The translations under genes were made by a program, and so were the position numbers. Source: a virus. From it: DNA of 64,000 nt. Below the pieces are notes generated by a model. The model saw only the letters and a list, made by a program, of their open reading frames with translations, was not told the DNA's origin and made no database searches. The stretch is from positions 124,001 to 188,000 of IMG/VR virus record IMGVR_UViG_3300047322_001237. One strand, written 5' to 3'. Shown here one piece after another: positions 15,857 to 40,601 of the stretch. Each line of letters starts with the position of its first letter. Within the stretch, counting starts at the first letter, position 1.

Positions 15857-15871
15857 CCTTCATAGGATTCC
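15857..15871 (-). promoter_or_regulatory. AATCCTATGA motif, putative late promoter
   Basis: Minus strand GGAATCCTATGAAGG, 26 nt before the 1116-aa fibre start. One of about ten AATYKTATGA motifs placed at unit starts. Confidence 0.5.
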
Positions 15872-15885
15872 GACGACCCTCGCGG

Positions 15886-15918
15886 CATAAACCCCCGCCC
15901 GAAGGCAGGGGGCCTATG
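15886..15918 (-). terminator. CATA-stem-loop-TATG element (terminator)
   Basis: Minus strand CATAGG, CCCCC-bulge-GCC stem, TTCG loop, GGCGGGGG, then TTTATGCCG. Ends the single-gene unit at 15931-16464 and carries a TATGCCG motif at its downstream edge. Confidence 0.75.
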
Positions 15919-15930
15919 AGATCAAGTCGC

Positions 15931-16464
15931 TTAGATTTGGTACCAGAGATCGCCGTTATTTCCACCGCTGGGAGTGGCGGTGGAGATGGTCATCTTGGGA
16001 ATCGAGGTCGCGGAATTGCTGGCCGCGGCCGCGCTCGCAGCAGCTGCTGATGCAGAAGTACTCGCATTGGTCGCGCTTCCTGCTGCATTGGACGCGGCGG
16101 TCTGCGCGTCTGAAGCGCTTGCAGCCGCTGCCATGGCCGAGGTATTGGCCGCACCTGCGGACGTCGAGGCGTTCGACGCGCTGGTCGCCGAGTTGTTCGC
16201 ATTGAGGACTGCGGTGCTGGCGGATGAACTCGCCGAGGTTGCGGAGTTGCTTGCTGCGGTGGCGCTATTCGCGGCCGCCGTTGCGCTAGTCGAAGCCGCA
16301 CTCGCGCTACTTGCAGCCGCCGTTGCCGACGCTGCTGCATTCGACGCCTGTTGTTGCGCGTCCAGATCGTCCTGGTGGATGTCGTGCAGTCCGCTTGCAA
16401 TACTGCTGATCTCGCTGGCAAGGGTCGTGACTTGCGAAGCGATTTGCTGCTGGGGAGTAGTCAC
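15931..16464 (-). CDS. Short Ala/Ser-rich tail fibre protein, 177 aa
   Basis: GTG start (GGAGG 4 nt upstream). The N-terminal 40 residues (QQIASQVTTLASEISSIASG) fit the anchor shared by the larger fibres, followed by about 110 residues of Ala/Ser/Thr/Asn repeat and a short tail, ATPSGGNNGDLWYQI. It lacks a tip domain. It could be an adaptor, a decoy of truncated fibre type, or a partner that extends another fibre. It forms its own unit between a TATGA motif and a terminator. Confidence 0.75.
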   Translation of the reverse strand: MTTPQQQIASQVTTLASEISSIASGLHDIHQDDLDAQQQASNAAASATAAASSASAASTSATAAANSATAASNSATSASSSASTAVLNANNSATSASNASTSAGAANTSAMAAAASASDAQTAASNAAGSATNASTSASAAAASAAAASNSATSIPKMTISTATPSGGNNGDLWYQI

Positions 16465-16489
16465 AGCGCCTCCGTTTGGGATAAGGAAA

Positions 16490-16505
16490 ACCGGTCATAC
16501 GATTC
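16490..16505 (-). promoter_or_regulatory. AATCGTATGA motif, putative late promoter
   Basis: Minus strand CCGAATCGTATGACCGG, 32 nt before the GTG start of the 177-aa protein. Confidence 0.5.
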
Positions 16506-16539
16506 GGTTCCTTGATCCAAGCGGACGGCCTATGAACTT

Positions 16540-17907
16540 TCATGCAAATGCTGCTTCGAGGTCTGCGATGCGAGCGCGTGCTCCGTCGAGCTGATCCGCC
16601 AGCTCCTTCACAGCTTCAATCAGTGGCGCGATCAACCCGATGTATGAGACGCCGAGCAGGTCTTTATGCCTTTTCAGGTCGTGTGTCACAGTGACCGCGT
16701 CGGGGAAGTGCGGTAGAACCTCTTGCGCGATCACCCCGTAATGCTTCTCGCCGCTCGCCCGGTAGGTGTAGGACACGCCGCGTATCTGGCGGATTTTCTC
16801 GAGCGATCCCTTGAGTGTCTTGATGTGCTTTTTCAAACGTTTATCAGAGCCATTCGTGCCCACGCCGGAAGCGGAGATCGTGTAGCGGCCGATCTCGGAT
16901 GTATTCGCGTTGTTCACGGTGCGGATGCACCAGCCACCCGTGCCGAGCCCCTGATTGACTGCAAGGTAACCTGCGCCATCACCGCTGCCGTCGTTCCATG
17001 AGAGCGTCACACCCTGCTGTGACAATCCCGCACCCCCGCCTGTGCCGTAACTCGATGTCACACGAAGATGCGGCATGACGATCTCCGAGTTGCTGGTCAC
17101 TGGCGAGTTGAAGACCGCGCTTGAATTGAACGTGACGCCTCCGGAAAAGGTTCCGCCACCGGTCCCAATCTTGCCAGCCAGCGCGTTGGACAGCCAGCCG
17201 CCCCACGCCGTACCGTAAACGTTGCCGTCCGTATTGAGGTAGGCGCCGCCCGTTCCGCCCGCGTACACCACCCCGCCGGAGGCGATCCAGCTCCGCGACG
17301 TAATGGTCCCTGCATCAGCCACTGTCAAATTGACCGCCGTGTTCGCACTGTTGACGAACTCGAGTGAGCTATTTGCGCTGTTCGATCGAATGAACGGCGC
17401 GTAGGATCCCGCCTGCAGCTTCAGATTGCTAAGCGTCGTGCTCGGATTGTAGATGTTGAGCCAGCCAGCCTGAAGGGTCAACGTACCTTGTCCGACGGTT
17501 CCCGAGATCCCTCCCGACGCTATCAAGCGCGCGTCGAAGTCCTGATTCACTCCCGAGCTATGGAAGTCGACGAACGGGGTAGAGACCGCCGTAGTTGAGC
17601 CAAGCTCAAGAGCGCCGCCAGTCGCATTGATTGGAGCGCTGAAGTAGCTTGCTGCATTCACTGTAAGTGTGCTACTCAACGTCGTAGTGCCAGTCACATT
17701 GAGCGTGCTACTTAGCTTAAGAGCGCCCGAGATTGAGCCAGTTCCGATAACCTGGAAGTCGTCGGTCCCGTTATCGGTTGTCGTGCCGATCAGCACGCGT
17801 CCGCCAGGGGACACCATCAGATTTCCAAATAACTTCGTTGGATCTGCGCTCGCTGCGGGTCCGAACAGATCAACGATCCGCGCGAGCATTTGAGGAGTGG
17901 TTGCCAT
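16540..17907 (-). CDS. Tail fibre with peptidase S74 chaperone domain, 455 aa
   Basis: N-terminus MATTPQMLARIVDLFGPAAS to GNLMVSPGGRVLIGTTTDNG is a second anchor type shared with the next two genes. A beta-rich shaft follows. From about residue 352 the C-terminus is an intramolecular chaperone of endosialidase type (peptidase S74): SDKRLKKHIKTL holds the Ser of autocleavage and the conserved Asp/Arg/Lys, then GVIAQEVLPHFPDAV and a terminal coiled coil. The chaperone trimerises the fibre and then cleaves itself off. Its ATG overlaps the previous stop by one base (TAATG). Confidence 0.9.
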   Translation of the reverse strand: MATTPQMLARIVDLFGPAASADPTKLFGNLMVSPGGRVLIGTTTDNGTDDFQVIGTGSISGALKLSSTLNVTGTTTLSSTLTVNAASYFSAPINATGGALELGSTTAVSTPFVDFHSSGVNQDFDARLIASGGISGTVGQGTLTLQAGWLNIYNPSTTLSNLKLQAGSYAPFIRSNSANSSLEFVNSANTAVNLTVADAGTITSRSWIASGGVVYAGGTGGAYLNTDGNVYGTAWGGWLSNALAGKIGTGGGTFSGGVTFNSSAVFNSPVTSNSEIVMPHLRVTSSYGTGGGAGLSQQGVTLSWNDGSGDGAGYLAVNQGLGTGGWCIRTVNNANTSEIGRYTISASGVGTNGSDKRLKKHIKTLKGSLEKIRQIRGVSYTYRASGEKHYGVIAQEVLPHFPDAVTVTHDLKRHKDLLGVSYIGLIAPLIEAVKELADQLDGARARIADLEAAFA

Positions 17908-19022: not shown

Positions 19023-19029
19023 AATGCGC

Positions 19030-20448: not shown

Positions 20449-20469
20449 TTCAAACCTGCTCAGGAAGGA

Positions 20470-21240: not shown

Positions 21241-21263
21241 GGTTGAACCCCGAAATAAAAGAG

Positions 21264-21278
21264 ACTTCATAAAATTCG
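21264..21278 (-). promoter_or_regulatory. AATTTTATGA motif, putative late promoter
   Basis: Minus strand CCCGAATTTTATGAAG, 28 nt before the ILEI-domain gene. An AAATATTCC stretch just upstream resembles the AT-rich motif at 5538 and 58874. Confidence 0.5.
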
Positions 21279-21296
21279 GGAATATTTGATTGACGA

Positions 21297-21337
21297 CATA
21301 GGCTCCTCACCCGGGTTACCCTGGGTGAGGAGCTATG
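21297..21337 (-). terminator. CATA-stem-loop-TATG element (terminator)
   Basis: Minus strand CATAGCTCCTCACCC, loop, GGGTGAGGAGCCTATGTCGTC. The 10-bp GC-rich stem is bounded by CATA and TATG. It closes the 3125-aa fibre gene. Confidence 0.75.
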
Positions 21338-21372: not shown

Positions 21373-24300
21373 TCAGTGACGCTTCAGTGCATCGACTTCC
21401 TTGCGCAGTGCTGCGACTTCAGCGCGCGATGCTCTCAGTTCCACCGTCAATTCCTGCAACGCCGCAGTGAGCACCGGCACCAGCTTCGAGTAGTCCACCT
21501 GCTGGATGAGCATCTCCTCTCGCACATCCAAGACATCTTCCGGCTTGATGTCCGCGGGATCATGTCCTTCCGCCAGCTCGACGTGGTGCCAGACCGCATC
21601 TTTCTCGCCAGTCACCGCATGCGGCACGTGTTCTGCGAGCTCGTGCGCGAGGAAGCCCTCGTGCTCGCGCTGTTCCGGGTCGTGCTTGAAAGCGTACTTC
21701 GATGGCTTGAGGGCCATCACGCGCTCCAATGCACTGTCCAGCCGGACGACCTTATGCTTCAGACGGTAGTCCGATGTCGTGTTGAACGCGGTTGCAGACG
21801 TTGAGACGGTGATACTTCCCGCCGCCGCGTTACTGCTGTTGAGGAAGACGATTGCGCTCGTAGATGCGCCGCCCTCGCTACCATTCACATACACCGTGCC
21901 ATAACCCGTGCCGTTTGCATGGCCCTGGATCAAGTGACGAATGGAGTTAAGCGACGTGGACGTCGTCAACAGTCCCGACCCGTACGAACCAGCAGTGTAT
22001 GCACTGGTCGCTGCAATCAAGATGTGACCGCCAGTGTCGATCCGCATCCGCTCTGCTCCGCCCACCGAAAAGGCGAGGGGCAATGTGGTTCCCGTCCCGA
22101 CGGCACTCGAGCCTAGCGACGCGAGGCTTCCATCCAAAATCGACATCTGAACGATCGAGGCATTGGTAGGGTCCGACTTCGACCATACCGTGAAATTTCC
22201 CGACCCTCCAGAAGCCGTCGGTGCAAGTGCGCCAACGCTCGTACCCGTGCCGCTTCCACTCTGGAACATGACGCGGTTTGCATAAGTCGTATTCGCGAAA
22301 TCACCGGTGATCCGGTTGCCCGTTCCCACAAAGCTCAGATTGCCAGCGATCTGCTGTGAGCCACCTGTGTTCTCCAGAAGGACCCATGCACCCAAGGTCG
22401 AGTTCCACATCACCTCGACAAATCCGCCCGCTACGAATTCGCCGCCCGACAACGCTATGTGACCGTTACCGTAGATCGGCTTTGCTGCGCCACCGTTGAC
22501 CGATAGGGTCGACGCCCCCGTGTTACCGTGAGCGATCTGAAACGACAGCACCATGCCATTGACCAACGTTCCAATCGTCGGCAGGTAACTGACCGCGTAC
22601 GCGTTAGCGACGCCCGTGTCGTTCGCAAAGGACAACGAACAGTTCTGGACCTGCGTTTGCAGCGCTGAGCCGCTAAACGACACCGGCTGAAGCATGATCA
22701 GCGTGTAGACATCTGTCGCCTCTGCTGCTCCAGTCGCGAGTGTCGCCGTGGTTCCACCGTTGAAGGTGAAGTCCACACCCGGCGTTAAAAAGCTCCCGTT
22801 TTCGACGATCCACAGGAACCCGGCTGGTGTCGAAACGGGCAGGGTAAGGCTGGTTGCCCCTGCCGCAATCGTTACGTTCGTCACCGTCGGCTGCACTACG
22901 TTACTGGCCTGGAACAGCACGCCGGACATGACGGAGTAACTGGTCATGCCATCTGCCGCCGTGGCAAGAGTAATGCTGTTGCCCGTCGTCGCCGTGTAGC
23001 TCGCATTCGGATCCAACCACGAACCGTTCGCGAACACCTGCACCTGGTTCAAGCCGTACTGCTGGCAAGCGAAGCTAGTTGCGCCCGCCGGCGGTGTGTA
23101 CGTCATCACCGTCGGATTCGCCGCAAGGTACGCACTGGTCTGGGTCGTGCCATCCGGGAAGGTCAGGCCGTTTCCGGAACCGCTGATGCCGATATTACCG
23201 CCCACCTGTAATTGGTTCACACCGTCATCGACGAGACCAACACCAAGTCCAAAACGGCCGCTCTGCCAGAACCGGCCAGTCGTAGCGTTCAGGAGCTTAA
23301 AGTTGATGGCCACAGAACCGTTCGTCGGCAACGTGCCCGACTCATCCGTCGTCGCATGGATGTAAATCGGTTTGGCCGCCGTAGACGGCGAGTACCCGAC
23401 GATTTTGTGGTCATTCGGTGCGTTCGAATCGAGGCCGGTGTTGGTCCCGATTGCGATGTATTGCAACGCTTGACCGTTCCGAACAACCGACAGGCCGTGA
23501 CCTCCAGTGCTCGGCGTCGCGATTTGCACTTTCCCGTTGGCATAATCGGTCGTGGAACCGATCTGCAGCTGTCCGTTCAGGTAGTTCGACGCCGACCCGT
23601 CCATGTACAGGTTCCACTTGCTCGTCCCGTTCGCCATCTTGCCGCGATAGGCGATGTTCGTGGTCGCTGCACTTGTATCCTGCGCGTCAAACGCCTGATA
23701 GGTGGTGATTGCCGAACCGGTGCCGAGCGTGGGCGCGCTCGCAATGAAGCCGTACAGGTTCGACATGGTGAATGACGCCGCCTGCAGCTTGGGCGCCGAC
23801 ATGAACGTGTAGCCGTTCGACGTCGCAGCGGAGTTGTACTCCTGCGTGAAGTAGAAGCCGTATTGCGAGGTACCCGTACCCGGCGCAGCGCCGTTGGCGT
23901 AATAGGCCACGCTTGACGAGAGCGATGCTCCGTTGCCAACTGCCATGTAGCCATCGCCGTGAAATGCGAGGCCGATTGCACCAAACACACCGGTATTTGT
24001 GCCGGGATCGTTCGCGATGAACAGCCCACCGGCGTTGTGCATCATCCGGGTGTTCTTTGCTCCCGCGCTCAGATCGATGAACTGAATCGTCGGCTGGTAG
24101 CTTTCGATGCTCACTCCGCCACCCGTGCCGCTCTTGTTGTCCATCACGCGCAACGTGGGTGCGTTCAGCACCGGAGCCGACGCCGCCGAAATTCCATTCG
24201 GGTTGATCTGCACTTCCGACGCCCCGTCGTCGATTATCGTGCCAATTAGGACTCGACCACCCCACGGCGCGAGCCCGACCGGATACTTCGATGTGTTGCC

Positions 24301-27300
24301 GCTGTTATAGCTCTCGATGCTCAGGCCCGAGAAGCTGCTGCCGGTAGTCAAGCTTCCGAATATCGTGCCGGCGCTATTGCTCAGCGTCATTCCCTGGGAT
24401 GAGACTGACGTGAATGAGGCAGTCCCATTCACTTGAAGCAAGTGTGAGCCATCGTCCGTGCTCGTGCCGATCAGCACACGACCCGAGTCATGGACCCGCA
24501 TGCGAGAGATCGGTCCAGTGCTGCCCGCCGTAGTGGTGCGGAACTCCAAGTACGCGCCCGCCGCGGTACCGGAGAACGTCTCGACTGCCGTCGCACTGAC
24601 ATACGCAGACTGGGTGATCGACGTGCCGTTCGAGCCATTGAAGGACACGCGACCCAACTCGTCGCCAGCGATGACTGCGCCTTGCGCGCCTACGGTCGTG
24701 CCGCGCGATTTACCGATGCCGATACCCGCGCAGAGCGCGTCTGCACTAAACCGCGCCGTGTTGATGAAGGAGTCGTTACCGACGCCGAAGTTTTGAATGC
24801 CCGCAATGCTCGTGTAGCCGTTCGCAACGTCAACACTGCCGCCTCGGTAAAAGCGACCCGAGATCGCGGCGGTACCCGTCACCTGCAACTGGTTCGCGCC
24901 GTCGTCCGCCGTGCCGACCAAGAAACGACCGGTCTGCGTGATCGATGCGCGCTGCACTCCAAGCGTCGAGAACGTGATACCGACAGCTCCCGCTGTAGGC
25001 GTCGTGTTGCTCGCGTCCGTCGTCGCATTGAAGTTCAGGTTCTTCGCATTGCCCGACGCACTGTACGAATCGATCTTGTTTTGGTTCGTCGCGTCTGGCG
25101 ACGCACCGATTGAGATGTACTGCGTGGTCGAGTTATTGCGGAACACCGAGAGGCCATAGCCAGTTACCGGGCCATTGATCTGCACTTGGCTCGAACCGTC
25201 GTCGGTCGAGGTACCCACGAGCAGGCGCCCCGCGCTGACGAGCCGCATCGCCTCGATACCCGCGGTCCTGAATAGCATCGCGCCCGCGTTGGTCGTGCCG
25301 GATCCGTAGACAGCGAGGGCAGGTCCGTTCGCGTTGCTGAAGCCATACACGCCGGAGTTGCCCGTGGCTGACGTCTGCATGTAGAAGTTGCCTGCAGACA
25401 TCGACCCGCCGATCTGAACCGGCGTGCTGCCGTCGTCCGTGACATTGCCCAGCAAAACCCGACCGCCAGCAGGCATGATCGTCATCTTGTCGAGCGTGTA
25501 GCTGCTGGCCGTGCGATAGACCTGCCACGCATACGTTGATGCCGAGTAAGCATCGTTGATCGACCGGAAGCCTGCGACTCCAGACGCGCCTGTCGTCACC
25601 AATTCCCACATCTTCTGGTCAGCCGCCATCCCCGCTTGATAGAGACTGAGCGATGTCTGACCTGTGCCGCTGCCGTTCGTCGCCTTGAGTGCCGAAGACG
25701 ATCCGGTACCGGTTACCGCTCCGGTGAAGGTCGGGCCGCTCGCGAGCGCGGCGTAGTTGCCCGGTGTGAAGTTGCCCGCGTTCCACACCTGCTGCCCATT
25801 GACGTACAGCTGCCCGTTGGGCATGTTGTACGACGTGCCGTCGAAATAAACGTAGTGCGAGCCGCCACTATCGAGATAGATCACCCCCTTGCTGTTACTA
25901 CCGGCATATCCGTACGAGTAGATAGTGCCGTTCGTCGACGTAAGACCCGGTGCCGAGACCGCGCCGGTGAATGTTGCGCCCGAGAGTGCCGCCTTCCCAG
26001 CGAGGTTGTTCGTCATCGTGGTGGCGAAGTTGGGATCATCGCCCAATGCCGACGCCAGCTCGTTCAACGTATCCAGCGCGCCGGGCGCGCTCGCAATCAG
26101 ATTGCTGACCAACGTCTGCACGAACGCCGTGTTGGCCGCGTTCAGCGAGTTGTCCGTCGCCGCCATCGTGGGTACCGACACGCTGCCCGTGAAGCTGACT
26201 GCGCCGCTAAACTTGCCTCCGCCTGTCACCTGCAGCGCAGTCGAACCATCATCGGTCCCGCCCCCGATCACCGCACGGCTGGTGAACACCCCCAAAGGCG
26301 CCGTCACCGACACGCTGTAGCTGGGAGAGCTTTGATCCGAATACAGGGTGGTGCGCCATGTGCTTCCGCTCCACGTGTACATGGCCTTGTCGTTCACGTT
26401 CATCGTGACCGATGCACCAAAGTCCGCAGTATCCGTTCCGTTGGGCTTAACGGACCAGGTTCCCAACATGACATCCAAGAACACCGCCGCGCCCGCTTGC
26501 AGCGTCGACCCGGCAGGGAGGGTCGTGGTGTTACTCGCGCCGGTCAGATTCAGTGACGTGTATGCACCCGCGTAGGTGCTGTCCATCGTCACGCCCGTCG
26601 TCGTGATCGGCTTGACGCCGTTGAACTGCAGACCGGACACCGACGACACCGTGTAGATGCCGGCACTGCCGTCGCAGAACAACTGCATCGCCTTGCCTTG
26701 CGGCACGGAGACCGATGCGCTTCCGCCAGTCATGCTCACCGTCACCTGATAGGCTCCGGTCGTGGCGTTCTCCAAGATGAACGGGTGAGAAGTGGCCGGA
26801 CAAACCACCGTCGCATTGCTCGAGAGCGCGCCCTTGACGATCACGATGCCGTTCGAATACTGCGTTGCCGTGAGGGTCGTGCTGCCGCCCGTCGTGTTCA
26901 GCGTGTAGATGCCATTCAGGTTGATCTGAACGTTCTGCGCATTCGTTGCCGCAGTTTGGGCAGCCGTGGCTGAGTTCGCCGCGTTCGTTGCACTTGTGCC
27001 CGCGTTCGATGCCGATGTCGAAGCAGCGGAAGCGCTGCTCGAAGCGTTCGAAGCGGAAGTGCTGGCGTCGCTTGCCGATGTGCTGGCCTGGTTCGCATAG
27101 TACTTCGCGGAGTAGCTTGTTCCATCCACCGTACCGGAGGCTTGGGAAGCCCAGTTCTGTGCCGTGGTGACGCTCGTAGCCGCATTGCTTGCACTGGTGC
27201 TCGCGGCGCTGGCGCTGCTGCTCGCGTTCGATGCCGATGTACTGGCATTGCCGGCCGAAGTGCTAGCCTGCTGAGCGTAGTAATAGGCCGAGTAGTAACT

Positions 27301-30300
27301 CGTCCCGTTCACATAGCCGGAAACCTGACTTGCCCAGCTCTGGGCGAGCGTTGCGCTGCTAGAAGCGTTGCTTGCGCTGGTGCTGGCCGCGCTCGCGCTA
27401 TTCGACGCATTCGTGGCGGACGTGCTGGCATTGCCCGCCTGCGTCGTCGCGGTACCGGAGCTCGTGCTCGCACTGGAAGCGGAGGAGCTCGCCTGTGTGG
27501 CATAGTACTTCGCGGAGTAGCTCGTTCCGTCGACCGTTCCGCTTGCCTGGCTGGCCCAGTTCAGTGCGCTGGTCGCGCTCGTTGCTGCATTCGATGCGGA
27601 AGCGCTCGCGGCCGATGCGCTTGACGAAGCGTTACTTGCAGACGTGCTCGCATTACTTGCCGAGGTGCCCGCTTGGTTGGCGTAGTAAAACGCCGAGTAA
27701 TAGCTCGTTCCGTTAACAACGCCCGATGATTGACTCGCCCAGTTTTGAGCAAGAGTGGCGCTGTTCGCCGCATTGGTCGCCGAAGTACTCGCTCCACCGG
27801 CACTGGTCGAAGCGCTGGATGCAGACGTGGATGCCTGTGTCGCGTAGTACTTGGCGGAGTAGCTGACGCCATCCACCATGCCGGACGCCTGACTCGCCCA
27901 GTTTTGAGCCGTCGTCGCCGAAGCACTTGCATTGGATGCCTGTGTCGTCGCCGTACTCGCGCTGGTCGATGCAGAGCTTGCGCTGGTCGATGCCGACGAA
28001 GCCGAACCACTCGCATTCGACGCCGACGTGCTCGCCGCGCTCGCGCTGCTTGCTGCGTTGGTCGCGCTGGTGCTCGCTTGTGCGGCGTAATACTTAGCCG
28101 AATAGCTGGTCCCATCGACTGTGCCAGAGGCCTGCGAAGCCCAGTTCTGCGCAGTCGCAGCCGAAGTACTCGCAGAGCCTGCCTGCGTTGCCGCGGACGA
28201 GGCGTTCGATGCCGCATTGGCTGCCGACGCATCTGCTGCACTCGCCGACGCAGCCGCTTCGCTTGCCGAGTCAGCGGCCGCACTGGCCGAACTTGCCGCG
28301 TCCGACGCCGACCCAGCTGCCTGGGCCGCCGCGAGCTGCGCATTAGAGGACGCGGTGACCGAGCTTCCGTCTTGCGGAACCCACTCCGATCCGTCGTACA
28401 CCATCAGGACGGGCGGCGCTTGCGAGGTATCCTCGTACTCTGCACCCGCTTTCAGAGGGTCGCCGTTGCCGTCGACGGCAGGAGGCGTATCGTGCCCGCC
28501 CAACCACAGCGCATTGAACGAGGCGACAGCGGCTTGAAAGGTGGAAAGACTTGTTGCGGCTTGCGTCGCAGACGATGCTGCGCTCGTCGCGCTCGCACTG
28601 GCCGCATCGGCACTGCTCGCCGCTGCACTGGCAGATCCAGCCGACTCGCCGGCGTACGTATTTGCGACATCGGCAGAACCTGCAGCTGCCGTCGCGCTCG
28701 CTGACGCTGCATCCGCGCTCGACGATGCGTTCGATTCCGCCGTCTCTGCAGAGCTCGCCGAAACTGCCGCGGTATTCGCGTAGTGCTTCGCCGAGAACTC
28801 CGACCCGTCTACCTGACCATCCGTCTTCGTCGCCCAATCCTGAGCGAGCGCCGCTGAGTCTGCCGCCGCTCCTGCGGAAGCGTCAGCAGATGTTGCCGAA
28901 CTGCTCGCATTGCTAGCCTGCGTCTGGGCATCCGAGTCCGCTGCCTGAGCCAGCTGGGCGTAATACTTGGCACCGTAGCTCACGCCATCCACGGTATCGG
29001 TCGTATCGGTCGCCCACTTCTCGGCTGTCGCTTGTGCTGCCTGCGATGCCGTTGCACTCGAAGCGGCGTCACTCGCGTGGGCTGCTGCACCGCTTTCAGA
29101 CGCGGCGGCCTGCTGAGCGTAGTAGAGGGCCGAATAGAAATTCGTGCCCCCAACGGTGCCCGTCAGTTGAGCCGCCCAGGCCTGAGCGAGCGATGCATTG
29201 TTGGCTACCGTGACCGCCTGACCGGACACTGCCGTCGCGGCTGTTTGCGCTTGCGTGGCTGAGTTCGCCGCATTGACTGCGTAATACTTCGCTGAATAAT
29301 CCAGACCATCCACTAGGCCGGAAGTCTGCGACGCCCATTGAGACGCGAGAGTTGCTGCATCTTGCGCGTCGACCACTGATGCAGCTGCTTCGCTTGCCGA
29401 CGTCTCCGCGTTCGTCGCTTGCGTACTGGCGGAGCTGTTTGCGTCCTGCGCCACCTGTGCAGAAACCGCAGCAGCCGATGCGCTGTCATCCGCATCAGTT
29501 GCTGATGCCGCTGCTGCAGCTGCGCTCGTCGAGGCGTTAGATGCGAAAGCAGAGGCCGAAGTGGCGGACTCACTTGCCGTTGCTGCGGATGTGGAAGCGG
29601 CCGATGCCGAGTTCGCGGAATCGTTGGCGCTCAACGCGGAAGCTGCTGCAGAGCTAGCCGAATCGTCAGCGCTTGCGGCTGATGCGGACGCGCTCGCTGA
29701 ACCCTGAGACACCGCGCTCGTCAGTGCCGAAGCACTCGCGGCTGCAGCGCTCGCTGAGCTTGCCGCGTCGTCAGCCGAAGAAGCTGCATTATCGGCGCTC
29801 CGCCCAGCATCGATCGAACTCGTTTCGGCAGCCGATGCGTAGTAGCTCGCCGAATAGTGAGTGCCGTCGACGGTACCCGTGCTTTGACTTGCCCACGCTT
29901 GCGCAAGCGTCGCTGAATCAGCCGCATCGTGAGCTGCAGCAGACACAGCGGCTTCCGAAGCGCTCGCGCTGGTGGCTGAGGACGACGCGGAAGTCGCTGC
30001 GTCTTGAGCGGCTTGCGCCGATGCAGCCGCATTGGTTTCTGAGTTCGACGCGGCACCGGCGTTCGCCAGCGCAGCACCCGCCGAAGTCGCAGCAGCCGTG
30101 GCCGACGCGCCAGCTTGACTCGCCGACAGCTGCGCACTCGAGGAAGCCAGTTCGCTTTCCAGATCCTGATCTTGCCAAGCTCCGTTGGCATAGACACGCA
30201 CGCGAGCCGGGCTATCGCTCGTATTCAGGTACTGTGCGCCGTCAACCAGTGGATCGCCGTTATTATCAGTCGCCGGGTCCGACGGTAATTCGCCGAGCCA

Positions 30301-30750
30301 GATCTTGTTAAACGACGTGAGCTGCCCCTGAACCTGCGCTGCAGTGGACTGCGCTTGCGTGAGCAGTGACTGGGTCGTGCTCAACGTCGACTGGGCGGTC
30401 GAAAGCTGCGTGGTGATGGTGCTCACCGCGTCGGTTGCGGTGGTTGCAGCCGTGCTCGCTGCTGCAGCGGCGCTACTCGCCGTAGTCGCTGCGCTCTCCG
30501 CTTCGGTGGCAGCACTGGTAGCCGTGGAGGCAGCGGTCTGGGCGTCCGATGCTGCCGATCCTACTGAGGCGGCAGACTGCGCCGCTTCGGTCGCACTCTG
30601 CGCGGCGGCTTGCGCGCTAGACGCCGCCTCGTGCGCATCTTCATCGACTGCTGCTACGTTCACACTGGTTTCGTGAAGCGCAGGGCCAAGCTCTTCGATC
30701 TGATTGACGAGCGCCAAGACTTGGCTGTTCAAATCGTCCATGATGCTCAT
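21373..30750 (-). CDS. Giant Ala/Ser-rich tail fibre with peptidase S74 domain, 3125 aa
   Basis: Modules in order: anchor type 1 (MSIMDDLNSQVLALVNQIEE); Ala/Ser repeats to about residue 1270, interrupted by FNKIWLG (about 147) and FNALWLG (about 745) modules and eleven WASQxxGxVDGxxYSAKYYA modules; a beta-rich shaft with about eight GRxLIGTxTDDGxxxxQVNG repeats; a domain near 2560-2900 (LNQVQVFANGSWL; FQIAHGNTGASTLSVNG); and an S74 chaperone from about 2988 (SDYRLKHKVVRL, FLAHELAEHVPHAV, terminal coiled coil). At over 9 kb it is probably a very long fibre. It forms its own unit; TATGA lies 27 nt upstream with AGGGG as ribosome site. Confidence 0.9.
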   Translation of the reverse strand: MSIMDDLNSQVLALVNQIEELGPALHETSVNVAAVDEDAHEAASSAQAAAQSATEAAQSAASVGSAASDAQTAASTATSAATEAESAATTASSAAAAASTAATTATDAVSTITTQLSTAQSTLSTTQSLLTQAQSTAAQVQGQLTSFNKIWLGELPSDPATDNNGDPLVDGAQYLNTSDSPARVRVYANGAWQDQDLESELASSSAQLSASQAGASATAAATSAGAALANAGAASNSETNAAASAQAAQDAATSASSSATSASASEAAVSAAAHDAADSATLAQAWASQSTGTVDGTHYSASYYASAAETSSIDAGRSADNAASSADDAASSASAAAASASALTSAVSQGSASASASAASADDSASSAAASALSANDSANSASAASTSAATASESATSASAFASNASTSAAAAAASATDADDSASAAAVSAQVAQDANSSASTQATNAETSASEAAASVVDAQDAATLASQWASQTSGLVDGLDYSAKYYAVNAANSATQAQTAATAVSGQAVTVANNASLAQAWAAQLTGTVGGTNFYSALYYAQQAAASESGAAAHASDAASSATASQAAQATAEKWATDTTDTVDGVSYGAKYYAQLAQAADSDAQTQASNASSSATSADASAGAAADSAALAQDWATKTDGQVDGSEFSAKHYANTAAVSASSAETAESNASSSADAASASATAAAGSADVANTYAGESAGSASAAASSADAASASATSAASSATQAATSLSTFQAAVASFNALWLGGHDTPPAVDGNGDPLKAGAEYEDTSQAPPVLMVYDGSEWVPQDGSSVTASSNAQLAAAQAAGSASDAASSASAAADSASEAAASASAADASAANAASNASSAATQAGSASTSAATAQNWASQASGTVDGTSYSAKYYAAQASTSATNAASSASAASTSASNASGSASSASTSASSASTSASTATTQASNASASATTAQNWASQASGMVDGVSYSAKYYATQASTSASSASTSAGGASTSATNAANSATLAQNWASQSSGVVNGTSYYSAFYYANQAGTSASNASTSASNASSSASAASASASNAATSATSALNWASQASGTVDGTSYSAKYYATQASSSASSASTSSGTATTQAGNASTSATNASNSASAASTSASNASSSATLAQSWASQVSGYVNGTSYYSAYYYAQQASTSAGNASTSASNASSSASAASTSASNAATSVTTAQNWASQASGTVDGTSYSAKYYANQASTSASDASTSASNASSSASAASTSASNAGTSATNAANSATAAQTAATNAQNVQINLNGIYTLNTTGGSTTLTATQYSNGIVIVKGALSSNATVVCPATSHPFILENATTGAYQVTVSMTGGSASVSVPQGKAMQLFCDGSAGIYTVSSVSGLQFNGVKPITTTGVTMDSTYAGAYTSLNLTGASNTTTLPAGSTLQAGAAVFLDVMLGTWSVKPNGTDTADFGASVTMNVNDKAMYTWSGSTWRTTLYSDQSSPSYSVSVTAPLGVFTSRAVIGGGTDDGSTALQVTGGGKFSGAVSFTGSVSVPTMAATDNSLNAANTAFVQTLVSNLIASAPGALDTLNELASALGDDPNFATTMTNNLAGKAALSGATFTGAVSAPGLTSTNGTIYSYGYAGSNSKGVIYLDSGGSHYVYFDGTSYNMPNGQLYVNGQQVWNAGNFTPGNYAALASGPTFTGAVTGTGSSSALKATNGSGTGQTSLSLYQAGMAADQKMWELVTTGASGVAGFRSINDAYSASTYAWQVYRTASSYTLDKMTIMPAGGRVLLGNVTDDGSTPVQIGGSMSAGNFYMQTSATGNSGVYGFSNANGPALAVYGSGTTNAGAMLFRTAGIEAMRLVSAGRLLVGTSTDDGSSQVQINGPVTGYGLSVFRNNSTTQYISIGASPDATNQNKIDSYSASGNAKNLNFNATTDASNTTPTAGAVGITFSTLGVQRASITQTGRFLVGTADDGANQLQVTGTAAISGRFYRGGSVDVANGYTSIAGIQNFGVGNDSFINTARFSADALCAGIGIGKSRGTTVGAQGAVIAGDELGRVSFNGSNGTSITQSAYVSATAVETFSGTAAGAYLEFRTTTAGSTGPISRMRVHDSGRVLIGTSTDDGSHLLQVNGTASFTSVSSQGMTLSNSAGTIFGSLTTGSSFSGLSIESYNSGNTSKYPVGLAPWGGRVLIGTIIDDGASEVQINPNGISAASAPVLNAPTLRVMDNKSGTGGGVSIESYQPTIQFIDLSAGAKNTRMMHNAGGLFIANDPGTNTGVFGAIGLAFHGDGYMAVGNGASLSSSVAYYANGAAPGTGTSQYGFYFTQEYNSAATSNGYTFMSAPKLQAASFTMSNLYGFIASAPTLGTGSAITTYQAFDAQDTSAATTNIAYRGKMANGTSKWNLYMDGSASNYLNGQLQIGSTTDYANGKVQIATPSTGGHGLSVVRNGQALQYIAIGTNTGLDSNAPNDHKIVGYSPSTAAKPIYIHATTDESGTLPTNGSVAINFKLLNATTGRFWQSGRFGLGVGLVDDGVNQLQVGGNIGISGSGNGLTFPDGTTQTSAYLAANPTVMTYTPPAGATSFACQQYGLNQVQVFANGSWLDPNASYTATTGNSITLATAADGMTSYSVMSGVLFQASNVVQPTVTNVTIAAGATSLTLPVSTPAGFLWIVENGSFLTPGVDFTFNGGTTATLATGAAEATDVYTLIMLQPVSFSGSALQTQVQNCSLSFANDTGVANAYAVSYLPTIGTLVNGMVLSFQIAHGNTGASTLSVNGGAAKPIYGNGHIALSGGEFVAGGFVEVMWNSTLGAWVLLENTGGSQQIAGNLSFVGTGNRITGDFANTTYANRVMFQSGSGTGTSVGALAPTASGGSGNFTVWSKSDPTNASIVQMSILDGSLASLGSSAVGTGTTLPLAFSVGGAERMRIDTGGHILIAATSAYTAGSYGSGLLTTSTSLNSIRHLIQGHANGTGYGTVYVNGSEGGASTSAIVFLNSSNAAAGSITVSTSATAFNTTSDYRLKHKVVRLDSALERVMALKPSKYAFKHDPEQREHEGFLAHELAEHVPHAVTGEKDAVWHHVELAEGHDPADIKPEDVLDVREEMLIQQVDYSKLVPVLTAALQELTVELRASRAEVAALRKEVDALKRH

Positions 30751-30773: not shown

Positions 30774-30785
30774 GGTCATAAAATG
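30774..30785 (-). promoter_or_regulatory. CATTTTATGA motif, putative late promoter
   Basis: Minus strand GGCATTTTATGACC, 27 nt before the giant fibre gene. Confidence 0.5.
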
Positions 30786-30811
30786 CCGTTCGTTCGGGGC
30801 AGGGCAGGCGG

Positions 30812-30845
30812 CATAACGGCTACCCGGTCCGAAGACCAGGTAGCC
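30812..30845 (-). terminator. Stem-loop terminator followed by TATGCCG
   Basis: Minus strand GGCTACC-TGGTC, TTCG loop, GACC-GGGTAGCC, then GTTATGCCGCC. Ends the unit 33337-30851. Confidence 0.7.
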
Positions 30846-30850: not shown

Positions 30851-31291
30851 TCAGGTAGCGAATCTCGCGCAGAAGGCCATGAAGTCATACATGACATTGG
30901 GATCAATGCGCCATGCGCCGTGGTAACCCAACGAGCGCAAACACGCTCGAGAGCAGAAGAACTTCTTGTGGATGATGAAGGTGATAGGCCGCACGATGAA
31001 CCCGAGCAATCCCACGTAGTCGTAGGCCTCGCCAACATGAGCCTCGAACCATGCCCGCACCTGAGCCACGTCTCCTGGGACCGTCACGAAATCCCAGTCG
31101 CTCGCAGCAAGCGATTGGCTTTCCGCGATGCGCACACCAGTGCCGGGAACCGCCGAGGCGATGGTGTAGGTGCCGTCCGTGTTTTCCTGGAGGATCATTT
31201 CGCAGTGGGCGTAGTGACCGACTTCCCACCACCGAATGATCTTGTCCAGAAACGAGCCCGAGCCTTTATAGAACGCGATTTTTACGGCCAT
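30851..31291 (-). CDS. Permuted papain-like (YiiX/NlpC-P60 superfamily) protein, 146 aa
   Basis: Start MAVKIAFYKGSGSFLDKIIR with GGAGG upstream. His29 lies in GHYAHCEM near the N-terminus and a Cys at 113 in FFCSRACLRSLG; this His-before-Cys order is the circularly permuted NlpC/P60 arrangement. Such phage proteins may cleave peptidoglycan cross-links or lipid amides; no signal peptide is present. It overlaps the DUF4376-like gene by 10 nt and is the last gene of a fibre unit, so it may be virion-associated and act on the cell wall or on fibre processing. Confidence 0.7.
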   Translation of the reverse strand: MAVKIAFYKGSGSFLDKIIRWWEVGHYAHCEMILQENTDGTYTIASAVPGTGVRIAESQSLAASDWDFVTVPGDVAQVRAWFEAHVGEAYDYVGLLGFIVRPITFIIHKKFFCSRACLRSLGYHGAWRIDPNVMYDFMAFCARFAT

Positions 31292-31998: not shown

Positions 31999-32008
31999 AC
32001 GGACATCC

Positions 32009-33353: not shown

Positions 33354-33366
33354 GTTTCATACGATT
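33354..33366 (-). promoter_or_regulatory. AATCGTATGA motif, putative late promoter
   Basis: Minus strand CTGAATCGTATGAAAC, 21 nt before the 442-aa fibre gene. Confidence 0.5.
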
Positions 33367-33393
33367 CAGGCGGTACTCACGGCAGAAAGACGG

Positions 33394-33425
33394 CATAAAG
33401 GACCGCACGAAAGCGGCCCTTTATG
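33394..33425 (-). terminator. CATA-stem-loop-TATG element (terminator)
   Basis: Minus strand CATAAAGGGCCGC, TTTCG loop, TGCGGTCCTTTATGCCGTC: an almost perfect 13-bp dyad bounded by CATA and TATG, ending the 93-aa gene. Confidence 0.8.
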
Positions 33426-33455: not shown

Positions 33456-33737
33456 TTACGCTGCTTCACCAGCCGGTGCATCTGCCGGCGTTTGCAGTGT
33501 CGAGGGCGCGCCTGCGGGCGGTGCAAGTGGTGCACCGGCTTGCGCCGCTTGCGCCATCTGCTTCTCGACCAAGCCCATAAGCTCTTGCATATGCGCTTCC
33601 TTGAAGGACGCGTCCGCGAACTCACGCCACTTTGCCGCGGTGACGATGGTCGGTTCAAAAACTGCTTCTTGAAGGTGCTCGCCGTCATCGAGGACAACGG
33701 TCGCTTGTACTGCTACTTTGAGAAGACGAATTTTCAT
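33456..33737 (-). CDS. Hypothetical protein, 93 aa
   Basis: Start MKIRLLKVAVQATVVLDDGE with AAGGAAC upstream. N-terminal half is a beta-alpha fold; C-terminal 35 residues are Ala/Pro-rich (AGAPLAPPAGAPSTLQ). No family recognised. It forms its own unit between fibre genes, with a TATGG motif 47 nt upstream and a terminator downstream, suggesting a structural or assembly role. Confidence 0.7.
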   Translation of the reverse strand: MKIRLLKVAVQATVVLDDGEHLQEAVFEPTIVTAAKWREFADASFKEAHMQELMGLVEKQMAQAAQAGAPLAPPAGAPSTLQTPADAPAGEAA

Positions 33738-33779: not shown

Positions 33780-33795
33780 GCTCCATACAATGCGC
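33780..33795 (-). promoter_or_regulatory. CATTGTATGG motif, putative late promoter
   Basis: Minus strand GCGCATTGTATGGAGC, 47 nt before the 93-aa gene; a divergent member (G after TATG). Confidence 0.4.
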
Positions 33796-33812: not shown

Positions 33813-35123
33813 TCACGAAGCGATGATGGCGAGCGTCGTCGAAGGAAGCACAAGGATGTTGTCCTTGTCCTTCATGATGAAAGACTTCCCCGTCTCGTAA
33901 TTGGATAGCAATGCATTGGCGCCCAGACCATTAACGGTGAGGGCGCTGCTTTGCGACCACACGCCGTTGAGGTTCTCGTACACCGTTTGGGTGGCGAGGT
34001 TATAGATCGCGTCCTGCGGATTCGTAAATTGCGTTACGCTCCAAAGGCTGTTCTGTTGTGATTCAGCGCAGAAGCCATACTGGGAGGAACCGCAGAATTT
34101 CGCGAGCAGCGGGTCCGAGGTCAGATCGATCGTGAGCGTCGCGATCAGAGTCTCCGGCGCCGACCAGTCCGATGTCGAGACTGTGATCGTGTTGCCCGTT
34201 CGCACTGCACGGATTCGGATATGCCCGTCCGTACCGTAGGTCGTTGCCTGACCGCTCCAGCCAGTCGTTGAGGTGTTGGTCACGTAGCCCGCCGCGGCAG
34301 CGCTGAGATTGCCGGCTGCGCCGTTACCCCACTTGACCTGCGACGAGCCGTTTACGACGGTCTTCGCGGCGTCGGTTGTCGACGACTGAAAGAAGTTGTA
34401 CGAGATGCCCCACAGCAAGCTCGACCCGCCAGGGCTGCGCAACGCGGACAGCGTATATTCATGACCCGTCGCTGGATCCTTGTACCAAGCGAGCAAGATG
34501 CCGATCACATCATCGTCCGAATTGGTCGACGACACCTTGACGTCGAGGATGTAGTTGTCGTATTTCTCCGTGGAGACGACGCCGATGAACGTGGCGGAGT
34601 TCGTCGTGTTTGAGATCTGTCCAGACGTGGAATCGTAAGCCCACGCCTGCAACTCCGACGAATTCGCCGGAAATGTGTCTGTGCTGTTGTGGCTGAAGCG
34701 ATACCAGCTGTTGAACACAGTCGACTGATCAGGAGCTGCGTTCATCGCTGCGTCCTGCTCTGCCTGCGAGGTCACAAAATTGCCAGAGATGAAACGCGTC
34801 ATGGTCGCGCTCTCGCTGAACAACTGCGAGATAACGCTTTCCGCAGCCGCGGCAGCAGAAGCGCTGCTTTGTGCCTGCTGAGCGTAGGTGGCCGCCGACG
34901 ACGCGGAGTTCGCCGCCTGCGTCGCAGACGTCTGAGCAGTCGTCGCTGCGCTGCTAGCCGTCGTCGCCGACGCACTCGCGCTGGTAGCGGCGGAGGACGC
35001 CGTTGCTGCATCATTATCAGCTTCGGTCACGTCATGACCGAGTTCCGCAAAGGCTGGCGCCATGCCGCTGATTTTCGCAGCCAGCACCGCGGTTGCCGCG
35101 TTGAGTTGATCCGGGATGCCCAT
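33813..35123 (-). CDS. Ala/Ser-rich tail fibre with lectin-like tip, 436 aa
   Basis: Anchor type 1 (MGIPDQLNAATAVLAAKISG), about 60 residues of Ala/Ser/Thr repeat, then from about residue 95 a non-repetitive beta-sandwich: FVTSQAEQDAAMN, TFIGVVSTEKYDNYILDVKV, DDVIGILLAWYKD. The order of strands resembles LamG/ConA-like carbohydrate-binding domains, and the WYKD/DDVIGI block recurs in phage tail tips. AGGA precedes the start and TATGA lies 27 nt upstream. Confidence 0.8.
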   Translation of the reverse strand: MGIPDQLNAATAVLAAKISGMAPAFAELGHDVTEADNDAATASSAATSASASATTASSAATTAQTSATQAANSASSAATYAQQAQSSASAAAAAESVISQLFSESATMTRFISGNFVTSQAEQDAAMNAAPDQSTVFNSWYRFSHNSTDTFPANSSELQAWAYDSTSGQISNTTNSATFIGVVSTEKYDNYILDVKVSSTNSDDDVIGILLAWYKDPATGHEYTLSALRSPGGSSLLWGISYNFFQSSTTDAAKTVVNGSSQVKWGNGAAGNLSAAAAGYVTNTSTTGWSGQATTYGTDGHIRIRAVRTGNTITVSTSDWSAPETLIATLTIDLTSDPLLAKFCGSSQYGFCAESQQNSLWSVTQFTNPQDAIYNLATQTVYENLNGVWSQSSALTVNGLGANALLSNYETGKSFIMKDKDNILVLPSTTLAIIAS

Positions 35124-35145: not shown

Positions 35146-35158
35146 TAGTCATAAAATG
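35146..35158 (-). promoter_or_regulatory. CATTTTATGA motif, putative late promoter
   Basis: Minus strand GGCATTTTATGACT, 27 nt before the 436-aa fibre gene; nearly identical to the site at 30774. Confidence 0.5.
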
Positions 35159-35175
35159 CCGAGACCGAACGACGG

Positions 35176-35207
35176 CATACGGCCCGGGGCGAACCCGGGC
35201 ACATATG
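35176..35207 (-). terminator. CATA-stem-loop-TATG element
   Basis: Minus strand CATATGTGCCCGGG, TTCGC loop, CCCGGGCCGTATGCCGTC. GC-rich stem without a real T-run, bounded by CATA and TATG. Follows the last gene of the 40564-35208 unit. Confidence 0.65.
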
Positions 35208-36744: not shown

Positions 36745-36765
36745 ATCTTCTCTCCTCACCCAGCA

Positions 36766-37884: not shown

Positions 37885-37895
37885 GTCCTTTCCTT

Positions 37896-39467
37896 CTAGT
37901 AGCGTTTGAGTCTGGAGCGCTGGAACGTTGTGCCGTTGATCCGTTGATCGAGCGTCGGAATGTTCGTGTTCGCGGGGGGATTGCCGAGGTCCACGGTGGA
38001 CGTCCAGCTCAGATAGCCTTTCTTCCGATCCTCTTCGGCGCAGTACAGACGCAGCGCGTCGCCCGAGGAGTCCGCATTGCAGAAGTTCAGGCTGTAGACA
38101 TCAAACACGTGCTTCATGCGCAGCTGCTGAAGTTGGGCGTTGATCTGATTGCTGACGGCGACAGCAGTTTGATCGACGATCTTCGAATACGTCCCGCTCG
38201 TCTGATTCCAACTGGTGAGCCACGACTGGAACATCACCCCGGCGCAGGACTGAATGAAGCTCGCGATATTGGTGAAGCCTCGGTTCGCAATGAGTCGCGT
38301 CCCTGTGTTGGTCTTCAACGTGTTGATGAGGCTGGCAATCAGGGATCCCATCTGCGGGTAGACGTCCGCATCGTCGATGTTGTCCATGAAGATGCCATCC
38401 ATGTGATGGCCTTTACGGGTATAACTGATGAGAAGTTGCTGGCCCGAGATCACGGAGGCAGCGCCGCCGCTCGTCATGACGAACGCGCCCGTACGCATGT
38501 CAAAGGTGTAGTCCGCGCCCTGGTGATAGACGCCTTTGCCATCGAGTGTGGTCAGTGTGATCGTTGCATCGGGATCGATCGGCGACTGCGCTGTGTCGAA
38601 CGCGAGGGCGTTCCCGGAAGCTATCGTCACCGTCTTCAGCGTGACCGTTTCCTGCGACACGATGACCGGACCATTCAGCACGGTAGGCGCGTAGTAGTTC
38701 ATAATGCGGGTGAGCCACGTCGCGTCACCAGAATCTGCGTAATACGACCCCGCAACGCCGTTCTGATCCGGTGTATTAGGGTTCGCAAGACTGAAATCCT
38801 GCAGATAACCAGGACTCACTGGCGTGTACTTGCCGCACGCGGTTCCGGTCTGGAGTTGGTGCACCGGCTTGTATTTATTGCACTTATTGTTCGTGCAAGC
38901 TGCATTCGCGCTTCGTACCCAGTTGTTGCTTGAAGTGAATCCTCCGCCACACACCCCGCCCTGCGAGTACGTCGCATAACCGCCGACGCTGTCCAGGCTG
39001 CACGCGCCTGAGCAACGTCCTGTGCCCAAGAAATACATCGGCTGTGCCTGCGCGCAGGCCTTCGTGCCATACACAGCCTGTTTGTCGTTGAGGCATTCCT
39101 TGCATTCTCGCGCCTGATACCCTCCCTTGAGATAGTACCCAGCTTTTCCGCCCGGGCCTGTCCCATCTCCCACATACGGTCCCGTTGCTGACGTGAAGTC
39201 GTAGCGGTTCGAGTGAAAGCCTTTTTCTTCTCCTACTGAGACGTAGCCGTACACCATGATTCCGAGCGCTTGCCAGGCCAGCACATCGGCTGTCTTGGCG
39301 GTGAATGGATCCACGATGAGAATGTCGTATTGCGACAGCACGCTCTGATTGCCCGACGCATAGCACACTGCATAGGTCGGGAACCGCTGCAGGACCTCGC
39401 TGTAGGCAATGCTCGCGTTCGGCTGGACGAGCAGGGTGTCGACATCGGTGTAGTTGCCGGTCGTCAT
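37896..39467 (-). CDS. GH114-like glycoside hydrolase (putative virion depolymerase), 523 aa
   Basis: TIM-barrel blocks typical of glycoside hydrolase family 114 (endo-alpha-1,4-polygalactosaminidase): QYDILIVDPF (47-56), MVYGYVSVGEEKG (71-83), SYYADSGDATW (241-251), DGIFMDNIDDADVYP (357-371) and RLIANRGFTN. Acidic residues in the last two and in the GYVSVGEE strand are catalytic candidates. Two insertions are unusual: a Cys-rich segment with nine Cys (122-211) and a beta-sandwich (about 262-350). No signal peptide. Within a fibre operon it is best read as a capsule- or exopolysaccharide-degrading tail protein. Confidence 0.7.
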   Translation of the reverse strand: MTTGNYTDVDTLLVQPNASIAYSEVLQRFPTYAVCYASGNQSVLSQYDILIVDPFTAKTADVLAWQALGIMVYGYVSVGEEKGFHSNRYDFTSATGPYVGDGTGPGGKAGYYLKGGYQARECKECLNDKQAVYGTKACAQAQPMYFLGTGRCSGACSLDSVGGYATYSQGGVCGGGFTSSNNWVRSANAACTNNKCNKYKPVHQLQTGTACGKYTPVSPGYLQDFSLANPNTPDQNGVAGSYYADSGDATWLTRIMNYYAPTVLNGPVIVSQETVTLKTVTIASGNALAFDTAQSPIDPDATITLTTLDGKGVYHQGADYTFDMRTGAFVMTSGGAASVISGQQLLISYTRKGHHMDGIFMDNIDDADVYPQMGSLIASLINTLKTNTGTRLIANRGFTNIASFIQSCAGVMFQSWLTSWNQTSGTYSKIVDQTAVAVSNQINAQLQQLRMKHVFDVYSLNFCNADSSGDALRLYCAEEDRKKGYLSWTSTVDLGNPPANTNIPTLDQRINGTTFQRSRLKRY

Positions 39468-40564
39468 TATTGGATTCCGAGTGTCTTGACCTTCAGTGCA
39501 AGCGTCATCGAGTCAGCGTCGATGTTCGTGACAAGCACGTAAAGATTGCCGGAGGTGAGGGGCGGCACGAAGAAGCAACCGTTGTCAACGAAGCTCTGGT
39601 CGGTAATGCCGCTCGCCGTGTAGATGAGTGCGCCCGAAGCATTGCCGTCGAAGAACTGGATCTCGTAGTTCTGTTGCGCGGCCGGGTCGCTGTTGTTTGC
39701 CGACACCTGGAGCACCAACGTGCCGAGTGTGGTGCCGAGCACAAAGGTGGTGTTCGCCGTGGCCCCGGCTGTCGCAGGCAAGGTAATGGTGGCAGATAAG
39801 GTCTGCGAGGCGACGCCTCTCTGAGCAAGCGCTGCCGATGCCGCGGCTGCGCTTGCGCTATTTGCTGCGTTGGTCGCGCTCGTTGCGGCAGCCGTTGCGC
39901 TGTTTCCGGCGAGCGTGGCGGAGTTTGCTGCGGCGCTCGCCGCGTTCGTTACGACCGAAGTATTGGTCGAGATCGAGCTCGCGCTTGCCGCGGCGGCACT
40001 GGCAGAGGCAGCGGCATTGGTCGCGCTCGTCGAGGCGCTGCTCGCACTCGAAGAGGCGTTACCGGCCTGTGTGGTTGCGGTGCTGGCGGAAGAAGCGGCG
40101 GATTGCGCGGAAGCAGCGGCCGCAGACGCCCAAGACGACGCTTGGGTTGCGGCCAGTTGGGCATTGGCGGATGCGCCGTTCACGTCCAGTGCCACCCAGC
40201 CCGAGGTCGTATACGTCATCACCACCGGCGGCGTCTTGGAGACGTCTTCATATTCCGCGCCGACCGTCAACGCGTTGCCGTTGTTGTCCTTCGTCGGCGG
40301 GGTCGTGTGAGGTCCGAGCCAAAAGGCACCGAACGATTGAATAGCGGTTTGGAGCGAGGCAGCCGCAGCGTTCGCTGCATCGATCGCTGCCTGCAAATCG
40401 GCCGCCGTTTGCGAGGCATCACCCGCGCTGCCACCGGCATTCTTCGCGGCCTGAACCGCTTGTGCAGCTGCTGCGGCAGCGGCCACCGCGGACTCGGCGG
40501 CCCAAGTGGCGGACTGGCTTGCCGACAGAACGTCGGTATCGATCTGACTCGTAGCGTCGGACAT
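39467..40564 (-). CDS. Ala/Ser-rich tail fibre, 365 aa
   Basis: Ala/Ser-rich from the start, with an FGAFWLG module at about 78 (TPPVVMTYTTSGW), a second Ala/Ser repeat stretch, and from about 255 a beta-sandwich tip (SATITLPATAGATANTTFVL). No clear anchor type 1 or 2 and no S74. Its stop overlaps the next ATG by one base (TAATG). First gene of a five-gene unit; the AATCGTATG motif is 27 nt upstream. Confidence 0.8.
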   Translation of the reverse strand: MSDATSQIDTDVLSASQSATWAAESAVAAAAAAAQAVQAAKNAGGSAGDASQTAADLQAAIDAANAAAASLQTAIQSFGAFWLGPHTTPPTKDNNGNALTVGAEYEDVSKTPPVVMTYTTSGWVALDVNGASANAQLAATQASSWASAAAASAQSAASSASTATTQAGNASSSASSASTSATNAAASASAAAASASSISTNTSVVTNAASAAANSATLAGNSATAAATSATNAANSASAAAASAALAQRGVASQTLSATITLPATAGATANTTFVLGTTLGTLVLQVSANNSDPAAQQNYEIQFFDGNASGALIYTASGITDQSFVDNGCFFVPPLTSGNLYVLVTNIDADSMTLALKVKTLGIQ

Positions 40565-40586
40565 GACAGGCTCTCTTCTAGGAAAT

Positions 40587-40601
40587 TGGGCATACGATTC
40601 C
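40587..40601 (-). promoter_or_regulatory. AATCGTATGC motif, putative late promoter
   Basis: Minus strand GGGAATCGTATGCCC, 27 nt before the 365-aa fibre gene. Confidence 0.5.

Follow-up and report, generated by a model that had tools for sequence, protein, structure and literature searches.

In this study, we describe a predicted promoter signal in a 64,000-nucleotide (nt) stretch of viral DNA (positions 124,001 to 188,000 of IMG/VR virus record IMGVR_UViG_3300047322_001237; hereafter the window), where eight short minus-strand sites precede transcription units for tail-fibre-like adhesins. Judged from the DNA sequence, this adhesin-gene signal almost certainly directs initiation by the phage's own RNA polymerase (RNAP). 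It is very likely that the sites are late promoters of the phage's non-virion RNAP (nvRNAP), with the bipartite form A-7 T-6 N N T-3 A-2 T-1 R+1 and a start at G, sometimes at A. By the genomic measures presented here, the AT located exactly two bases before TATG (positions -7/-6, counting G as +1) forms a second element of the predicted late-promoter signal, not local decoration.

All eight sites listed in the initial annotation, which gave the coordinate of the G of TATG, were found where it had placed them. From 15861 to 40591, all on the minus strand, the predicted late promoters are GAATCCTATGA at 15860-15870 (+1 G at 15861, 25 nt to the ATG of gene 12485-15835); GAATCGTATGA at 16495-16505 (+1 at 16496, 31 nt to the GTG of gene 15931-16464, a tail-fibre PHROG); GAATTTTATGA at 21267-21277 (+1 at 21268, 27 nt to the ATG of the operon running from 21240 to 16540); GCATTTTATGA at 30776-30786 (+1 at 30777, 26 nt to the ATG of adhesin gene 21373-30750); GAATCGTATGA again at 33357-33367 (+1 at 33358, 20 nt to the ATG of the operon running from 33337 to 30851); GCATTGTATGG at 33783-33793 (+1 at 33784, 46 nt to the ATG of a small open reading frame, 33456-33737); GCATTTTATGA again at 35149-35159 (+1 at 35150, 26 nt to the ATG of gene 33813-35123); and GAATCGTATGC at 40590-40600 (+1 at 40591, 26 nt to the ATG of the operon running from 40564 to 35208). 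At each of the eight, TATG thus leaves 20-46 nt of room for a leader and a ribosome site. The outliers in spacing are 16496, with its GTG start, and 33784; the statement that six sites lie 21-28 nt before the start codon is correct by the counting used there. Genes internal to the adhesin operons lacked the motif, in agreement with its description as a mark of unit starts only. The 10-mer consensus MATYKTATGM was exact in six of the eight sites and needed adjustment for the other two, since the K position is C in 15861 and the last base is G in 33784. When the eight sites are aligned, the true register is the 11-mer G[AC]AT[TC]NTATG[AGC].

These sites exceed what chance would provide. MATYKTATGM occurred seven times in the window against 0.97 expected, a count reached in none of 100 shuffles, and nine times in the whole record, where a reversed control pattern was absent. 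One match in the window beyond the eight listed sites, CAATTGTATGA at 60263-60273 (-) with +1 at 60264, had been missed by the initial annotation and lies 67 nt before a virion structural gene (59549-60196). A matrix built from the eight sites ranked the same eight as the best places in the 279 kb record; as it was trained on them, this ranking shows only that no stronger places occur elsewhere. With the motif masked, the 28 pairs of upstream regions had a mean similarity of 7.9 compared with 7.5 for shuffled DNA; the two best pairs scored 14 and 13, the highest null score being 13. Wholesale duplication of the upstream regions was therefore rejected, as masked flanks are on average as unlike as shuffled DNA, and the match among the eight sites is not simply copied DNA. 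The 10-mer was over-represented only in the present phage and in none of the nvRNAP relatives searched, which makes it a local variant of a shorter signal that they have in common.

The window belongs to a 278,988-bp virus record whose best named relatives are Burkholderia phage FLC9, Xanthomonas phage LucasX and Burkholderia phage FLC6. A polymerase of the phage's own, which lay outside the view of the initial annotation, is encoded in the rest of the record, where both virion and non-virion RNAP sets are complete. Homologues of all phiKZ nvRNAP subunits were detected, namely gp55, gp68, gp71/73 (fused in one gene), gp74 and gp123, with Blast E values of 4e-42 to 6e-110, together with the virion RNAP subunits gp80, gp149, gp178 and gp180. 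Chimallin and PhuZ are both encoded beside these two multisubunit RNAPs, the gene content of a nucleus-forming phiKZ-like phage. The presence of complete phiKZ-type RNAPs, chimallin and PhuZ supports reading the sites as phiKZ-type late promoters.

The distribution of TATG was assessed in an upstream zone defined as noncoding DNA 12-65 nt before genes, which were called with a simple script, so that some start codons may be off. In the present phage, sense TATG occurred 43 times in this zone against 17.3 expected, ranking first among 256 tetramers, and antisense TATG occurred 18 times. Sense TATG ranked first in LucasX, second in G001 (an IMG/VR relative with 87% identical DNA that lacks the adhesin region) and fourth in FLC9, and in narrower upstream windows it was also the top sense tetramer in PA1C, Noxifer and G001. 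G001 keeps 20 of 21 upstream TATGs, compared with 70.5% for all tetramers in the same zone. Enrichment over background, on which the proposal of a phage-specific, phiKZ-like late promoter starting at TATG depended, is therefore seen genome-wide, and together with conservation in a diverged relative and the RNAP genes it supports that proposal.

The position of AT was examined by scanning every AT-to-TATG gap from 0 to 10 upstream of genes. In AT-N(k)-TATG, the sole upstream peak was at k=2, both in the present phage and in each of the 11 nvRNAP phages compared. Without its adhesin region, the present phage had AT-NN-TATG at 10 of 38 upstream TATGs versus 12 of 550 elsewhere (p=1.4e-7). Upstream counts were 83 versus 8.0 expected for eight relatives pooled (p=3e-50), 12 versus 1.9 for phiKZ and, for two genomes added after the pattern had been fixed, 22 versus 1.8 (pEa54) and 8 versus 0.5 (Eowyn); BcepSauron, a Burkholderia jumbo phage with the same GC content but without these RNAPs, had 3 versus 0.6. 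A first estimate, made against other tetramers of the same zone, had given a weak or no AT signal in phiKZ because, as the spacing scan and genic shuffles showed, AT-NN-TATG is depleted elsewhere. This rarity also accounts for part of the upstream contrast, and it led to a test of avoidance inside genes.

For this test, codons were shuffled among synonymous positions, which keeps protein sequence and codon usage, and both strands were counted. Observed versus shuffled numbers of genic AT-NN-TATG were 40 versus 212 in phiKZ, 11 versus 150 in PA1C, 17 versus 80 in SPN3US, 8 versus 55 in LucasX, 4 versus 50 in G002 (another of the genomes compared), 5 versus 46 in FLC6, 4 versus 44 in Noxifer, 5 versus 41 in FLC9 and 4 versus 26 in the present phage. 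The genomes analyzed after the pattern was fixed behaved similarly (Eowyn, 8 versus 107; pEa54, 27 versus 81). By the same shuffles, no avoidance was seen in T4 (140/154) or AR9 (283/281), and the value for BcepSauron (21/31) was not below that of most other spacings. As controls in phiKZ, patterns with other spacings reached 0.78-0.97 of the expected count, compared with 0.89 when the pattern was reversed and 1.00 when +1 was C. When about 28,000 gapped patterns were surveyed in phiKZ and PA1C, only homopolymer or A/T tracts and restriction-type palindromes were equally avoided. As a separate observation, some restriction palindromes do not occur at all in genes of phiKZ, PA1C, G002 and SPN3US; CTGCAG is absent from phiKZ genes (131 expected), and six palindromes are at zero in SPN3US.

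Base by base, the phiKZ profile returned to 0.75-1.27 of expectation when A-7, T-6, T-3, A-2 or T-1 was changed or when +1 was a pyrimidine, and A at +1 was still avoided (0.36). No base escaped avoidance at -9, -8, -5, -4, +2 or +3, so these positions are free and the avoided pattern in phiKZ is A-7 T-6 N N T-3 A-2 T-1 R+1. In vitro, mutants showed that every TATG base is needed, while those altered at -4 and +2 were less affected or even stimulated (PMC4666361). Genome statistics thus recover the TATG bases essential in vitro and add A-7 and T-6 as predicted promoter positions. AT-NN-TATA was avoided inside genes too (0.22-0.36 of expectation in phiKZ, PA1C and Eowyn), which suggests that the polymerase can start at A; upstream of genes, most nvRNAP genomes had fewer copies of this form than of the one with G. 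The freedom at +2 and +3 also bears on host sigma-70 promoters. TATGAA agrees with the -10 box TATAAT at four of six letters, but a search of the minus strand at the unit starts found no sigma-70-like -35/-10 site, and phiKZ infection is rifampicin-resistant (PMC4666361), making sigma-70 a highly improbable source of the signal.

The pattern is also linked to late structural genes. In phiKZ, 10 of the 12 genes with upstream AT-NN-TATG are annotated as structural or virion proteins, versus 68 of 321 overall (p=5e-6), and the proportion for genes with upstream TATG but no AT is 13 of 50. Hence AT-NN-TATG, not TATG alone, marks phiKZ structural genes. In the present phage, it fronts adhesins, homologues of gp130 and gp131, a baseplate protein and further virion proteins; the nvRNAP, chimallin and PhuZ genes that were identified all lack it. 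This distribution makes it very unlikely that the sites are early promoters read by an injected virion RNAP, even though the phage encodes that enzyme as well and early promoters of jumbo phages have been described as conserved (PMC7598289); moreover, TATG is the known nvRNAP start (PMC4666361). It likewise disfavors a recombination seam for swapping adhesin modules. All eight long-consensus sites lie in the fibre cluster, where exchange is plausible, but the core also precedes gp130, gp131, baseplate genes and genes of relatives, and the flanks are unrelated, so that a seam is scarcely credible.

A second context for TATG was observed directly 3′ of hairpins, as TTTATGCC or a close variant, preceding five of the eight adhesin promoters. 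On the minus strand, the terminator-like elements comprise a hairpin plus TTTATGCCG at 15883-15912 (upstream of promoter 15861), CCTATGTCG at 21294-21332 (upstream of 21268), GTTATGCCG at 30809-30845 (upstream of 30777), CTTTATGCCG at 33391-33422 (upstream of 33358) and CGTATGCCG at 35173-35200 (upstream of 35150). Hairpins with TTTATGCC-type tails are probably late terminators, and the TATGCCG strings just after them look like terminator tails, distinct from promoter TATG. Most of what an unbiased expectation-maximization motif search recovered from 188 upstream regions was terminator T-tracts and ribosome sites, and hairpin-tail TATGs therefore had to be set apart. These junctions could suggest that the whole signal serves as a terminator tail or acts in translation or mRNA processing. 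However, the hairpin tails are separate copies 20-45 nt upstream, with AT at -7/-6 in 1 of 12 compared with 16 of 38 hairpin-free upstream TATGs in the present phage, and the promoter copies have no stem; such an origin is extremely unlikely. With the sites read as promoters, most adhesin operons of the present phage are terminator-promoter cassettes with a short 5′ leader. The hairpin-TATG context also occurs in LucasX, FLC9, Noxifer and PA1C.

Several observations weigh against a bipartite nvRNAP promoter. Many upstream TATGs lack AT, so either AT is not obligatory or those TATGs are not promoters. P119L of phiKZ, the best-studied nvRNAP promoter, has T-7 T-6 and no A-7; according to published swaps, much of its strength lies downstream of +1. 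Of seven TATG-pocket residues in gp123, S144, S334 and Q466 are kept in the present phage, but four differ (N186H, S330D, N398T and S402F). In its GC-rich genome, depletion is not spacing-specific (0.14 at N2, and 0.20-0.67 at the other spacings tested), and avoidance is therefore argued chiefly from the lower-GC relatives. At -7, SPN3US avoids A, G and T, and least C, and FLC6 avoids A and C, as if the promoter preference had drifted by lineage. The phiKZ middle promoters P62M and P78M have TATG without AT and are inactive in vitro, which is consistent with AT mattering, but P119L is left unexplained.

Part of this evidence would fit a plain phiKZ-type late promoter consisting of TATG only, with AT and the longer consensus arising by chance or from local composition. 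P119L and the AT-less upstream TATGs agree with it, published text gives no consensus outside TATG, and the long consensus is over-represented in the present phage only. It does not account for a single enriched spacing of 2 in every nvRNAP genome, including the two added afterwards, nor for genic avoidance that tracks the same six positions, nor for the marking of phiKZ structural genes by AT and not by bare TATG. We therefore regard a TATG-only promoter as improbable and favor the bipartite form.

The late promoters of phiKZ, which are used by a five-subunit nvRNAP (TATG, with G as +1; PMC4666361, PMC12809450), share with the adhesin sites the TATG core, its orientation and the short leader that precedes late structural genes; the present genome also encodes a homologue of every subunit of that polymerase. 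The published motif has four bases and no conserved neighbor, whereas here an A-7T-6 at a fixed position occurs in the family, phiKZ included, and is avoided inside genes. The late promoters of the AR9 nvRNAP (AACA-N6-TR, with template-strand uracil; PMC7598289, PMC9209446) also have two parts close to the start and serve a multisubunit jumbo-phage polymerase, but they differ in sequence, position and strand. In AR9 DNA, AT-NN-TATG is neither avoided nor enriched, and AACA six bases before TR was not found in the site sequences of the present phage. The bacterial -10 element is likewise a short AT-rich signal near the upstream bubble edge; here, however, the signal consists of -7/-6 plus the start itself, has no -35, and four of its six fixed bases overlap or abut +1.

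We infer that transcription starts at these sites and that nvRNAP reads A-7T-6, possibly through its sigma-like subunit. In the proposed mechanism, the sigma-like gp68 homologue would open the duplex near -11 to -8, A-7T-6 would be recognized at the bubble's upstream edge, and TATG would be held by the gp123 homologue, which would also set the start. In the published structure, gp68 lies at the upstream fork, the bubble opens at -8 and gp123 holds TATG; engineered mismatches were used, and the intervening bases were mismatched or poorly ordered (PMC12809450). Because A-7T-6 falls just inside the -8 fork, it occupies the place where the sigma-like subunit would be expected to act. With this subunit permanently on the polymerase, stray genic copies would fire, and AT-NN-TATR would be purged from coding DNA. 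Across phiKZ-like phages in general, it is likely that the nvRNAP promoter is A-7 T-6 NN T-3 A-2 T-1 R+1 and not TATG alone, that AT provides much of the otherwise missing specificity, probably being recognized at the place where DNA is opened by the sigma-like subunit, and that selection has removed stray genic copies, so that promoter rules, including lineage shifts at -7 (SPN3US, FLC6), can be read from avoidance alone.

According to papers on the phiKZ nvRNAP, a start signal of four bases is insufficient to explain its specificity, and no wider consensus can be seen (PMC4666361, PMC7598289, PMC7618050, PMC12809450); a review notes that bioinformatics failed to predict phiKZ-like late promoters (PMC7598289). 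The AT element may be how the polymerase picks the right start places. No earlier report of it was found in the open literature searched, where descriptions are of TATG only, although one may exist. In all nvRNAP phages tested, AT at -7/-6 is enriched upstream of genes and purged within them, which offers a precise test of the specificity question with enzymes and promoters already available. AT-NN-TATG also makes it possible to predict late promoters of phiKZ-like phages from their sequence, and the synonymous-shuffle avoidance profile could be a general route to the promoter rule of a phage polymerase without RNA data.

Other shared strings were noted upstream of genes. Before likely early genes, CATATATTCCCGGCGTGAATC and GATATATCACC-like strings are common to G000:C1 107211 (-), window position 58816 (-) and the regions upstream of the gp68 and chimallin homologues, and are candidate virion-RNAP promoters. 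A longer string, CTSAGACMYATATGAC, lies about 60 nt upstream of three genes, at G000:C1 101551 (-), 211333 (-) and 219029 (-).

Genes of the adhesin units encode tail-fibre-like proteins, several with an S74 chaperone domain at the end; a search for relatives of one adhesin found none. The product of 21373-30750 (-) is a 3125-residue adhesin with a C-terminal Peptidase_S74 chaperone domain, and that of 12485-15835 (-), the first gene of its unit, is a tail-fibre-like protein of 1116 residues. The open reading frame at 33456-33737 (-) behind promoter 33784 encodes 93 residues, has no family match and was absent from the gene list of the initial annotation; it stands alone behind its own predicted late promoter, between two adhesin units. 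Gene 30851-31291 (-), the last of an adhesin operon, matches an enoyl-CoA hydratase-like phage family. On the opposite strand, a tRNA-Ala (CGC) gene at 40660-40732 (+) occupies the gap before the first adhesin operon.

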